A DNA stretch of 64,000 nt, from the NCBI GenBank assembly GCA_026120035.1, contig JALRME010000024.1, forward strand, positions 310,001 through 374,000, written 5' to 3'. Shown in pieces: positions 49,034 to 54,330 of this stretch. The position numbers and the translations under genes are program-made. The notes beneath the pieces are model-generated. The model had not been told where the DNA came from, made no database searches, and saw nothing but the letters and a program-made list of their open reading frames with translations. The stretch's first letter is position 1; the number at the start of each line of letters is the position of its first letter. This stretch comes from Coleophoma eucalyptorum (taxonomy: Eukaryota; Ascomycota; Leotiomycetes; Helotiales; Dermateaceae).

Positions 49034-49627
49034 AGGCGCCTTATAGACGAGAGATGAAAAGGACGGAATTCACATGGTTAGATCACTAGATAAGATACAC
49101 GACCGCGGCTTGCCAATTGGTATGACTCCAATATCGAGAAAATCTCTCATTTCGGAAATTTATCGAGGCAAACAGTTGCCATTTCGATTAGGTGCGCACC
49201 TCAAAGTCGTCTAATATCAACAACAACTTCTTGCTACCATTTCACCAATGACGTTATACTGGATGTAATACCTCAATTATAGCAGAGCTGAAACTCGAGT
49301 GTGATCGATGGGCTAACTCCATCAATGGTGCTCTTACGTGTCAAGTGATTGTTAATTCACCAATCCGGAATTGATGTACGGTACTGAGCGCCAAATGCCG
49401 TAAATTATACTTCGTCGAGCATTAATTGCATTCCTCTACCGTTTCTGCCCCCTAGTGCTGTACATCTCATTTTGAGAGGTATGGAATGCGTTGCTGGGCT
49501 GATCTCTATTTACTTTCCACACCCCCAGATCTGGTGCATAAAGGTAGAGAAATTCTGGATTCAACGAAGTTTAGAAGCCAGCTTCTTTCACATACATAAT
49601 TTTCTAGCAAGATTTAGTATTCAAATC
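49034..49627. other. intergenic region, esterase to chitinase
   Basis: This 590 bp has no supported gene. The chitinase frame extends upstream to 49472, and its first ATG there, at 49481, lacks a signal peptide. Confidence 0.5.
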
Positions 49628-52326
49628 ATGCCACGTATTTGCTTGAAGCTTCTACTCTCTACATTACTACTAACAGCTCTTCTTGAGAACGTACAGCTTA
49701 TTTATGCTGCAAGAATACCATTTTGGAAATCGGGCCACGAACATGGTAAAAAACGAAAACTTGGGGCGGGGGAAAGAATCGAGATTCCAGGATTAAGTTC
49801 ACTGGCCAAGTATGTATGCCCAAGAATAGCTAACAATGTAGGATCGGAACATCTTGGAGTAAGAAATGACTGGGCGGTTGATCTCCCGAGGGATGTCAAT
49901 TCGTTGAACACCGTTCTGCGGCAGATTCAGAATTTGGAAACAGAAATACATTCCTTGATGGCAAGGCTTCATCCTAGAGACGCTATGGACAGTAGCTCAG
50001 CAAACAATAACCAAGCCCTTACTGAAGACTCTGAAGTATGGGCAGCGGTGGTTGGCTCTGAAGGTTCTATATATGAACAGGAGGAAACTGTAGCAACATT
50101 ATCTGCTACAGGCCTTTCTGTAACAACTACTAAACCACCACCAGCTCCAGGACATGCAGCTGCAGCGAGCGGCTCCCTCTTTCTTCCTGCAGCAACAAGT
50201 CAGGTCCCGTCCTCTGCCCCATCGAAACCTTCAGCTGCAAGTATACCTCCGGCAGCAAGTGTACCTCCAGCAGCAAGTGTACATCCAGCAGCAAGTGTAT
50301 CTCCAACAGCAAGTGTATCTCCGGCAGCAAGCCAACTTGTATCTACGGGTGCCTCTACGCTTGTAACCTCAAATCAGCCCGCTGCTAAAAGCCCAGTAGC
50401 TCCGGCTGCGGCTCCGTCAACATTGGCAGTTCCGAATCAGCCTGCAGCAGCTAGTATTGTTGTTAGTCTGAGTACCTCACCAGTGGCGGCTGACAATACA
50501 GCAGCTACATCCCAAGTAGCAACTCCAGCATCATCCGCACCTGGTGCCGGAAACAATCAACCAGCGGCTTCAACTTCACCGGAACCTGCCAGCCCTGCGG
50601 CTGCCCCATCGCAGGCAGCATCCCCAGCGTCTTTTACGCCTGTCTGGGTAAACGGTGATCCAGCGACGTCGGCAGCCGTGGTTGACAACAGTCCAACATC
50701 AGAAGCACCAGGTCCAGCGTCTGGAGCAGCAAGTTCGGCGCCGGGGGCAGCGAACCCTGCATCAGGAGCAGCAAGTCCAGCTGGTTCACTTGTTGTACTT
50801 CCATTCTTACCCAGAGCTACAGATTGTACTGCTTCCTATGGCGAAGCTGGAAACACAACAAGTACAACAACAATAACTTCGAGAATTACCTCGCATGCTT
50901 ATGTTACTTTGACCAGGACAGCACAAGCTGGTCTAGATGGATCTGCTGCTACAACCGTAGTGAACATTGATCTTGTTGCTGCGAATCAAATACAAGCGAG
51001 CGCAACCGCTGCTGCATCACAGCCAGCTTCAAAAGGCGACGTAGTGAACAATAATCTTCCTGGTGCGAATCAAATACAAGCGAGCGTAACCGCTGCTGCA
51101 TCGCAGCCAGCTTCAACAGGCGAGGTCTTTTTGGAAAATGAAGCCGCCAATACGAATCCGCCAAGTACAAAAGCAGCACAGTCTATGGCATACAACGTAG
51201 GTTTGCCCTCCGAAAACACCCAATCAGCTGCTGCATCATCACCAAGTTCCGAATCTTCGGGTTCTTCAAGCTATGTCTTTGATGCAGGGTCATCTGAGAA
51301 CGTTGCTGTGTACTTCGGACAGACAGGTGCAACCAGTCTTGATAGTCTGTCGAAACAATGTGCAGATCCGAGCATTGATATAGTCATTCTGGCTTTCGTT
51401 ATTGGTCAACTCGATGGCGGCATCTACCCACAGGTGAACTTTGGTTCTGCTTGCGGAGGCCAGACAGCTGCTATGAAAAGTGAAGCTCCAGGGTTACTTT
51501 CTTGTCCGTCACTAGCCGTTGAGATAGAAAAGTGTCAGTCCGTATATAACAAGAAGGTACTGTTGAGCATCGGCGGTGCAACCAGTCAGATATCTTTCCC
51601 AACTGTCGATGAGGCCATACTCTTTGCTGATGTACTCTGGGAACTGTTCGGTCCTATGGGAAACATCAATATTGACCTCCGGCCATTTGGAAATTTGTCC
51701 GTTGACGGATTTGACATTGGTACGTGTTTCATAGCGTAAAGCTTCAGGTAAGGTGCTGACAATAAATATAGACAATGAAAACAAATCCCCGGACTATTAT
51801 GATGAATTTGCCAGCACGTTGCGATCTCACTACAGTAGTACAAGCTCCAAGACCTTCTACCTCTCCTCCGCGCCTCAATGTCCATACCCTGACGCATCAA
51901 ATCCACTCGCTATGCTTCTTCTTTGCGACTTCGTCTGGGTCCAATTCTACAACAATCCTGACTGCGAGATTGGTTCCTCGGGTTTCTCAACTAGCGTAAA
52001 GGGTTGGTCTTCCCGCCTGCAGAACTCGACACTTAATCCACCCCCGAAGTTGTATATCGGCGCGCCTTCCTTCTCTGATGCTGGTAGTACGGCCTACAGT
52101 ACTATTGGTAGTGCAGCTGGCATGGAAGATATTGGCAAAGAGGTCAAAGATATTGGGGTGTCTAATCTTGGCGGCATTATGTTTTGGGATGGAAGTGAAG
52201 GCTTGGATAATGTCCAGAACGGGAAGACTATTATTGATGTGAGTCTTGGCTTTCCAACTGGTGCGTGTCACAAAGGTCACATACTGACGTACTTAATAGT
52301 ATGCGAAGATAGGTCTGGCTTCTTGA
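49628..52326 (+). CDS. secreted class III GH18 chitinase with long A/P/S linker
   Basis: Three exons, 49628-51719, 51772-52238 and 52300-52326, give 861 residues. I chose ATG 49628 because it starts a signal peptide (MPRICLKLLLSTLLLTALL). An N-terminal region of about 200 residues contains a short heptad stretch (SLNTVLRQIQNLETEIHSL). About 350 residues of Ala/Pro/Ser linker follow, with internal repeats. The catalytic domain begins at NVAVYFGQTG and includes LLSIGGATS and the DGFDIDNEN acid motif, rebuilt exactly across intron 1 and fitting DxxDxDxE. The hevamine-like arrangement fits chitin hydrolysis at the wall or outside the cell. The last exon is only nine codons (YAKIGLAS, stop). No carbohydrate-binding module or GPI signal is seen. 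Confidence 0.88.
50240..50329 (+). repeat. 18-nt tandem repeat in chitinase linker
   Basis: Five in-frame copies of an 18-nt unit encode SIPPAA, SVPPAA, SVHPAA, SVSPTA and SVSPAA. It is a coding minisatellite that lengthens the linker between the N-terminal region and the catalytic domain. Confidence 0.92.
50957..51124 (+). repeat. 84-nt tandem duplication in chitinase linker
   Basis: Two adjacent 84-nt units share long identical stretches, each encoding ANQIQAS followed by TAAASQPAS. The frame is maintained (28 residues per unit). The few differences imply a fairly recent duplication. Confidence 0.92.
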
Positions 52327-52541
52327 GGAAGACTTGCGTAATGAATAAGGAATATCAAAGTAAGCACCTTCTTGGTATATCCAGCTCTTGCTCTGCTAAT
52401 CAATTTTCTAGCGACTGTACAACAACCGAAACAACGACTACGATGACATATAGGAAACGAAATACACATAAATTACGAATTACTGGAAACGAACAATAAT
52501 ACGAAGTCGACAATCACGAACACGCGATGATTGTTTATAGA

Positions 52542-53153
52542 AGCTTGCCTTGAAATATCGTAAGTCTACGTGCTTGAGGCAGGTTGTGAATCACTGGCAT
52601 CTGTTTTGCTTGCTCTTTTAGCGTTTGTCTTTGCGTTTGTCTTTGAGGGGGCAGAGAGTTGGGCATTTGTTTGAATGTGTATTCCGCACCTTTTCAGTCC
52701 AGAAGCTGTCTTGAAATATCGCATGTCTACGTGCTCGAGGCAGCTGATGGAGTGTAACTTCTGCAATGGTTTGAGAGTTATATGGCATGTCTACCTGCGC
52801 TCTTGAAACATTGTTGAAGTACGGAGTGGATCTGCTTCTGTGATTTCTTTTTGGGGGTCTGAGAGCTATATGGCATGTCTACCTGCGCTCTTGGATCAGG
52901 GGAGTTGGTTCTTTTCTTTTGATGGTCACCCCTCTTTGACACTGAAGGCTATATGGCATGTCTACCTGCACTTTCAGTGAAGGACAAGAGAGATTTTTAT
53001 TCGGAAATGGCGTTAAGGTTGTTCTTTTTCTTTTGGCGATCTGGGGACTACATGGCATGTCTACCTGCGTTCTCAGATCAAGGATTAGCCGTCTTATTAG
53101 AATTCTGTTAGAGATCTTAGAGCTATATGGCATGTCTACCTGCGCTCTCGAAT
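52542..53153 (+). repeat. array of seven covarying hairpins (putative structured RNA)
   Basis: Seven copies of a hairpin lie at irregular spacing, 64-161 nt between equivalent bases. Each has a 20-nt apical segment, TATATGGCATGTCTACCTGC in copies 3, 4, 5 and 7, with one change in copy 6. Copies 1 and 2 share a variant with ATCG before and CGT after the octaloop. Flanking stems differ in sequence yet pair: 52542-52553 with 52574-52585 (12 bp), 52704-52714 with 52735-52745 (11), 52770-52778 with 52799-52807 (9, plus 6 beyond a mismatch), 52856-52866 with 52887-52897 (11), 52940-52948 with 52971-52979 (9), 53038-53048 with 53069-53079 (11), and 53119-53123 with 53144-53148 (5). Spacers are T-rich. 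G-T pairs in the stems imply a plus-strand transcript, possibly the chitinase 3' UTR or an independent RNA. Confidence 0.85.
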
Positions 53154-53799
53154 ATTGGTTAATGTTTTTTGATGGATCTTGGGTCTCTGGGGATTTCATT
53201 CTACGCATATTCTGGATATGGCTATGGAGGATGGTTGGAATGGTTGGTTAGGAGGAAATAAAAGGCAGGAATAGAGGGAGTTGGAAGGGTCATGTTTCAT
53301 CGGGAGAAATACGACGACGCGACGTAGAGAAAATCACAATAGCCTCTACAACATATCTTCAGTACTATTACCACGAGTTTCAAGAATATTTGGTGTAACA
53401 CGTAGAAAGAAATCCAAATGATGGCCCTGGTACATAAGGGATGGTTAAATCAAAGTTCTATATCTATGACAGGCAAAAAAGTGCAAAACCATACAACAGT
53501 ACAACAGTCGCTGGTGATCACCCACCCAATTCCCTATCTACTGACTTGAAGCATGCCTCAGAATAATACCTAAGTCTGCCCCTCGTGGCTTAGTAGGCGA
53601 GCAATGCTGCCCTACGAATTCGGGAGTCTCCTCAAATAGGAGGACACACGAGGTGAGCCGTTATGCGCGAAGGTAATGAGTAGGTAATTAGAGGTGATAC
53701 TATAACTGAATAAGCAAAAGCTCAGTCTGGGTACAATTAAGCGAGGGTTCAATCTGTTCCCAGGCGGAACTTATCCGTACCCAGGCCAAGCTGCAAACA
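53154..53799. other. intergenic region right of the hairpin array
   Basis: This 650 bp has no supported gene or further clear hairpin copy. It forms the 3' flank of the AIG2-like gene. Confidence 0.5.
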
Positions 53800-54330
53800 C
53801 TACTTGTCCAACTGTGACATCTGCCAGTCTTTTAGAATGAATTCTCCATCCCTCAACTCCTTATCATCATCCCTTCCTGCCCACTTGAACAGAGAACCCG
53901 TTAACCTCTCTCCATACATCCCCTCCGGATACCGGTTATACCCCTTCTCCCATCCTGCCTTAAGAAGCATCGACACTGGAGACCGTTTATACTTGTCCGT
54001 CTCATAGGCAGCCAACATATCCTGGTGCTTCTTATCCTGTGTGAAATAAGCCATCCCGTGCACTGTATTTGCACGTTCGCGTTTTGGTACTTTCTCTGAT
54101 AGCACAGCTGGATATTGGCCCCACATCCTACTGTAATAGCCTGCAACACTTGCGGGTTCGAGTTTTGGTGTTTCTCGAAGATTAAGGGCTTTCTTGAGAT
54201 GGGAGGGATCCATGAGCGACCCATAGAAGAAGAACCATTGTCCTCGGTAGATGTTCTCGCGTTCGTGTCTTTCAAGGAGGTCGGGATCCGTGGCTGCCGC
54301 TTCATTAAATAGCTGTGACTTCTGTTGCAT
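53800..54330 (-). CDS. AIG2-like / gamma-glutamylcyclotransferase-fold protein
   Basis: A single exon of 176 residues. The motif QWFFFYGSLMDPSHL is the substrate-loop signature (YGSL) of the GGCT/AIG2 fold. Later segments VAGYYSRMWGQYPAVL and TVHGMAYFTQDKKHQDMLAAYE fit the same fold. Family enzymes release 5-oxoproline from gamma-glutamyl compounds, and many fungal AIG2-like members are uncharacterised. The frame is open upstream for about 70 codons without an ATG, so an extra 5' exon is possible, but the chosen start leaves the full fold. Confidence 0.8.
   Translation of the reverse strand: MQQKSQLFNEAAATDPDLLERHERENIYRGQWFFFYGSLMDPSHLKKALNLRETPKLEPASVAGYYSRMWGQYPAVLSEKVPKRERANTVHGMAYFTQDKKHQDMLAAYETDKYKRSPVSMLLKAGWEKGYNRYPEGMYGERLTGSLFKWAGRDDDKELRDGEFILKDWQMSQLDK

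Follow-up and report, generated by a model that had tools for sequence, protein, structure and literature searches.

What is the row of seven short hairpins that lies between two genes in the fungus Coleophoma eucalyptorum, and is it kept as DNA or as RNA? The row occupies positions 52543–53154 on the plus strand of a 64,000-nt stretch (hereafter, the window) that corresponds to forward-strand positions 310,001–374,000 of contig JALRME010000024.1 in assembly GCA_026120035.1, between a chitinase gene and a convergent gene further downstream. An initial annotation, made from the letters of the window, had described the hairpins as having a common apex and covarying arms. Having analysed the array in the window and across the genome (45.26 Mb in 101 contigs), we consider it probable that it constitutes a functional RNA domain of seven diverged tandem hairpins, most likely in a plus-strand RNA, and that it acts as a multivalent binding array. 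The copies are the following:

52543–52584, plus strand: hairpin copy 1; apex 52554–52573; loop variant UAAGUCUA; stem 11/11 paired
52704–52745, plus strand: hairpin copy 2; apex 52715–52734; stem 11/11 paired
52768–52809, plus strand: hairpin copy 3; apex 52779–52798; stem 10/11 paired, with extra pairs outward
52856–52897, plus strand: hairpin copy 4; apex 52867–52886; stem 11/11 paired
52939–52980, plus strand: hairpin copy 5; apex 52950–52969; stem 9/11 paired
53038–53079, plus strand: hairpin copy 6; apex 53049–53068; stem 11/11 paired
53113–53154, plus strand: hairpin copy 7; apex 53124–53143; stem 8/11 paired, weak

In a common alignment frame, columns 12–22 pair with columns 43–53 to form an 11-bp stem around the apex (columns 23–42), and 71 of the 77 stem cells are paired across the seven copies (8–11 per copy). 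The copies had been described as sharing one 20-nt apical segment; their number holds, while the apex (NAYAUSGYAWGUCUACSUGC) is not identical throughout, with 14 of its 20 positions invariant and the loop of copy 1 reading UAAGUCUA. Mean between-copy identity amounts to 0.89 in the apex, 0.38 in the arms, and 0.32 in the flanks. Between copies 1–2 and copies 3–7, arm identity lies at chance level (0.00–0.23) with pairing retained. Successive copies are spaced by 161, 64, 88, 83, 99, and 75 nt, and the six inter-hairpin spacers are T-rich (T 0.32–0.44), with pyrimidine runs of at least 6 nt in four of them.

The earlier claim that the arms differ yet pair, by compensatory change, is borne out by the alignment, in which 11, 11, 10, 11, 9, 11, and 8 of the 11 positions are paired in copies 1 to 7. 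Two-sided changes occur in at least one copy at 12 of the 13 pairs, namely all 11 in the stem and one in the apex; compensated cells number 25 over the 13 pairs, and 93.4% of cells are paired. None of 500 shuffles reached the observed value on any of five covariation measures, and slid registers of the alignment reduced the paired share to 31–53%. The same stem frame, slid over the whole window, gave a mean of 4.1 pairs, with at least 9 pairs at 0.46% of positions (array included). In the vicinity of the array (52000–53900, copies excluded, n = 1851) the mean was 4.2 and the maximum 10, with at least 9 pairs at 0.76% of positions.

Because shuffles ignore the relatedness of the copies, we added a neutral simulation in which a perfect hairpin evolves without constraint along the tree that relates the copies, at three branch scalings with 5000 runs each. 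At each scaling, 0 of 5000 runs reached 71 paired cells, the highest value being 65, obtained with half-length branches. Nor did any of the 5000 runs reach the 24 two-sided changes in the stem (maximum 17); these changes number 23 in the covariation count, which follows another rule for ties. The simulation is a rough null, since its tree and distances derive from the very 22 arm positions under test. Compensation beyond both shuffling and relatedness, the mark of a structured RNA under selection, was thus observed on seven paralogous copies. We read these results as strong signs of selection on the stems of a real and apparently unnamed RNA array.

The kind of mismatch tolerated in the stems bears on the level of this selection. 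There are 22 non-Watson–Crick stem cells, comprising 16 G-U, 2 A-C, and 4 other combinations, so that the earlier estimate of about sixteen G-T cells was exact. The G-U share (16/22) far exceeds the 0.23 expected from arm composition (P = 9e-7), which argues for selection on RNA and against both DNA palindromes and template-switch repair. As for the strand, 71 of 77 stem cells pair when read from plus and 57 of 77 when read from minus, and the ratio of G-U to A-C cells (16 to 2) is significant at P = 0.03 allowing for composition. Plus-strand folding energies are lower than those of the minus strand in five of the seven copies, and minus-strand per-copy folding z-scores range from -0.61 to -2.42. 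A plus-strand RNA, as had been proposed from the G-T cells, remains the likeliest reading, although this strand test is weaker than the test of RNA versus DNA and the per-copy folding z-scores lend the plus strand no support.

Within the apex, columns 28/39 are GC in five copies and CG in two, just as initially annotated. Two apical folds compete. Fold A (28–39 and 29–38, extended by 25–41 and 26–40, U27 being bulged) is paired in every copy and accounts for the single compensated apical change. Fold B (29–42, 30–41, 31–40) also pairs in all seven, without compensation, and its longer form fails at 32–39 in six of them. Computed energies favour A in copies 1, 5, and 6 and B in copy 2, and are split in copies 3, 4, and 7. 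The octaloop closed by GG facing CC, as originally drawn, is one of these two near-isoenergetic folds. We lean towards fold A, with a possible switch between the two.

Copy 1 alone carries GTAAGT, a canonical 5′ splice site, in its apex (52560–52565); on the plus strand, 52301–53400 holds just one other match to GTRNGY. Splicing from the site in copy 1 would destroy hairpin 1. The idea that the apex serves as a decoy 5′ splice site, raised by the similarity of GYAWGU to such a site, was rejected, as a C occupies the second place in six of the seven copies and would break U1 pairing.

The array resembles no family that we could name, in agreement with the initial annotation. Searches of the window on both strands against Rfam 15 gave 0 matches at the gathering score, and at E ≤10 the interval 52300–53400 returned only two plasmid antisense-RNA matches, far below cut-off and both in spacers. 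SECIS elements, iron-responsive elements, hammerhead, twister, and HAC1-type loops were dropped after comparison by eye with their known forms and in view of the Rfam result. Among the open-licence titles and abstracts returned by literature searches, none described this array or like fungal arrays.

Nor did the genome yield convincing further copies. At the DNA level, the whole array region matched only itself. An eighth copy was sought in 52000–53900 with filters off, and only the seven copies exceeded 9.4 bits; another model search listed six of the copies and missed copy 2. The 15-nt apex core at up to two mismatches has 87 matches in the genome, 6 in the array and 81 elsewhere (54 for the reversed pattern), and at all 81 non-array sites the arms pair at 1–7 of 11 positions (mean 4.0), compared with 8–11 in the array copies. 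The 14 invariant positions, searched as a 19-place pattern at up to one mismatch, gave 22 matches, 7 of them in the array, and 11 for the reversed pattern. Twenty look-alikes chosen by these positions (17 from this genome and 3 viral, partly overlapping with the core sites) had 2–8 of 11 arm positions paired, the best of them, L022, reaching 8/11 and so equalling copy 7. The sole exact match elsewhere to the 14 invariant positions is L017, positions 1501–1519 (G000:C68:46703–46721), with U and A at columns 28/39; its arms show 6/11 pairs, scattered. We take both L017 and L022 as chance matches. L006 (G000:C13:865321–865335, minus strand), an unlinked site with unpaired arms, agrees with the apex at 17 of the 18 letters in columns 25–42.

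A covariance model run against all 18 non-array loci taken from these two pattern searches gave 7 matches to E 10, the best being L006 (17.7 bits, E 0.027) and L017 (17.0 bits, E 0.041), both over the apex only; against 78 further sites it gave 14 matches to E 1, the best at 14.6 bits. Three single apex matches in viral contigs scored 24.1, 20.0, and 16.4 bits (E 0.0002 to 0.03), with 6, 5, and 4 of 11 arm positions paired. Since they were selected with the apex pattern and show poor pairing in the arms, they were set aside as chance rather than taken as relatives of the array. A mobile hairpin element (miniature inverted-repeat transposable element, double-hairpin element, or an element like the repetitive extragenic palindromes) was rejected as well: dispersed copies were not found at the divergence searched, beyond which more diverged copies would be missed.

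Several observations weigh against an RNA binding array. The covariation comes from seven paralogous copies of one genome, the apical compensation is one event that separates copies 1–2 from copies 3–7, and the apical fold is ambiguous. A model built on copies 3–7 gives copy 2 a weak score of 21.7 bits (E 0.0034) with its stem partly deleted, and copy 1 is absent from its matches. Plus-strand folding of single copies gives z-scores from -4.87 to +1.78, with several copies unremarkable, and the z-score is more negative on the minus strand in four of the seven copies (copies 4–7). In copy 7, five uninterrupted pairs lie beneath the apex, and 197 of 200 shuffled versions fold equally well or better. 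The whole 701-nt region folds unremarkably (z -1.58 on plus and -0.86 on minus, 20 shuffles each), and no known RNA-binding protein motif was identified. The evidence is covariation, not single-sequence folding.

On balance, we still favour a multivalent binding array. Its stems of ~9–11 bp, free in sequence, would each hold up a near-invariant 20-nt apex, with mostly U-rich linkers in between. The conserved loop and bulge may form a protein recognition site, such that the apex would be recognised by one RNA-binding protein up to seven times per molecule and the array would act as a multivalent recruiter. Sequence-free stems, an apex fixed seven times over, and flexible U-rich linkers are what would be expected of a multivalent platform for one protein.

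Two carriers can be envisaged for such a domain, and we regard them as about equally probable: a long 3′ untranslated region (UTR) of the chitinase mRNA, in which the array may govern how stable the message is, how it is translated, or where it is localised, or else an independent non-coding RNA (ncRNA) of ~0.75 kb that would end near the AATAAA at 53257. The features that bear on this choice are:

49472–52326, plus strand: upstream GH18 chitinase gene, approximate; start from a TTG-initiated open reading frame (ORF), exon joins by eye
52540–53320, plus strand: block with T>A (to ~53260) and G>C (to ~53320) in the composition profile; proposed extent of the RNA domain
53257–53262, plus strand: AATAAA, candidate poly(A) signal; consensus match, the sole exact one within 52301–53800

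The window has the gene content of a filamentous fungus, with a GH18 chitinase, a carboxylesterase, a gamma-glutamyl cyclotransferase-like protein, GFA-domain proteins, and fungal-type introns, the introns being read by eye. In the chitinase gene, a GH18 domain match is confined to exon 51753–52256 (29.8 bits, cut-off 29.6), with none in the 49472–51736 ORF. This exon has 55 relatives, the best at 81% identity and Bisporella sp. PMI_857 at 54%. The N-terminal part of the chitinase ORF (49472–51739) contains a long low-complexity stretch rich in Ala, Ser, and Pro.

Tentatively, we advance the reading that the chitinase mRNA carries in its 3′ UTR a cis-acting element to which a regulator of cell-wall mRNAs binds repeatedly. 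Hairpin 1 begins on the same strand 216 nt past the inferred chitinase stop, which ends at 52326 by exon joins made by eye, a distance that the initial annotation had given correctly. Past the stop, 52360–52412 reads like an intron of 53 nt (GTAAGC ... GCTAATC ... TAG, by eye), possibly one in the 3′ UTR, and suggests that transcription may continue; the next gene downstream lies on the opposite strand, convergent, and ends at 53800. According to PMC10512220, Ssd1/GUL-1 control fungal cell-wall mRNAs post-transcriptionally, Ssd1 acting via UTR motifs. Against this, the Ssd1 5′ UTR motif of that paper was not found in 52300–53400 at up to one mismatch, and the word 'chitinase' is absent from its main text. 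The stretch between the chitinase stop and the array is A-rich (A 0.40) and switches to T-/G-rich at the first hairpin, a change that resembles the border of a unit.

With a shade more reserve, we consider a fungal long non-coding RNA independent of the chitinase, in which the seven self-paired hairpins would form a platform for one protein in chromatin, condensate, or mRNA control, with an origin independent of XIST and an apex that would represent an undescribed RNA recognition motif. The switch from A-rich to T-/G-rich sequence at hairpin 1, the end of the strand skew (the skewed block covers the array and its tail), and the AATAAA at 53257 favour such a unit of ~0.75 kb, whereas the shared strand, the short distance from the stop, and the intron-like stretch favour the chitinase 3′ UTR.

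A decoy or sponge RNA, whose invariant loop would pair seven times with a small or other RNA, seems unlikely. All seven copies keep GUCUA and the adjoining letters unchanged, a segment that could stay open for pairing, and core sites outside the array are commoner (81) than those of the reversed pattern (54), which is perhaps an unequal control. At the same time, the exact 15-nt GGCATGTCTACCTGC does not occur outside the array on either strand, and the genome thus holds no perfect 15-nt complement, shorter complements not being covered by this search; with one mismatch, the core has 9 sites outside the array. The conserved positions flank the loop on both sides, which would be more typical of recognition by a protein.

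Less likely still is a cluster of precursors of microRNA-like RNAs (milRNAs) or other small RNAs. Hairpin-derived small RNAs exist in fungi, and here tandem hairpins stand at one place, but the stem, where a mature RNA would sit, is the variable part of the array (identity 0.38 in the arms versus 0.89 in the apex), the opposite of a microRNA precursor, as had been pointed out from the start. Precursors of milRNAs are defined by a conserved stem strand of ~20 nt, which the array lacks, and a stem of ~11 bp is shorter than would be expected of a Dicer product. The apex letters, searched as DNA and RNA on both strands, turned up in only three papers of the literature searched, whose titles concern bladder cancer, Huntington's disease, and operons of E. 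coli.

We give about as little credence to DNA-level palindromes kept by template-switch (quasi-palindrome) mutation instead of selection on RNA: this process would leave Watson–Crick palindromes, contrary to the G-U excess, and the change between copies sits in the arms, not in the apex. A short repeated peptide-coding gene can practically be dismissed. In its favour, an AUG stands at columns 26–28 of copies 3–7 (52782, 52870, 52953, 53052, and 53127), with short ORFs and a shared MACLPA reading (copy 6 by translation, the others by eye). Against it, the triplet is AUC in copies 1 and 2, the copies are not uniformly spaced by multiples of three, the stems covary, and no homolog at E 10 was found for the two ORFs that span the latter half of the array (copies 4–7 on minus, copies 5–7 on plus).

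To our knowledge, no tandem array of covarying fixed-apex hairpins has been described from a fungal nuclear genome. Its copies provide an internal test of covariation that needs no other genome, and the apex is a direct bait for finding a partner. Should a partner be found, it would bring a new RNA recognition motif together with either a new control of fungal cell-wall genes or a new use of structured ncRNA.

Among known systems, the mitochondrial repetitive hairpin elements, including double-hairpin elements, are likewise repeated short hairpins, but they are mobile and dispersed, whereas the array is a single nuclear locus. The 17 candidate conserved fungal RNA structures described in PMC8216456, found in UTRs, introns, and intergenic regions and including several of unknown function, are covarying fungal RNAs as here; they differ in being mostly single copy per genome with cross-species support. 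The word 'tandem' is absent from the main text of that paper, and the array was compared with those models through Rfam only. In the Ox40 mRNA 3′ UTR, several structured elements are described as being bound multivalently by Roquin, with a core formed by a pair of an alternative and a constitutive decay element (ADE-CDE) and a 2:1 stoichiometry (PMC9023295), unlike the seven near-identical 20-nt apices seen here. In the XIST A-repeat region, a single RNA carries between six and eight and a half short units joined by U-rich linkers, and four of these are enough for high-affinity SPEN binding where two or three are not, as reported in PMC10870365. Tandem short repeats and U-rich linkers are common to both; in the mammalian A-repeats pairing is thought to occur between repeats, whereas in the array, from another kingdom, covariation indicates that each copy pairs with itself. 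By analogy at most, and with no claim of membership, the array resembles RNA platforms built of tandem repeats, the XIST A-repeats among them.
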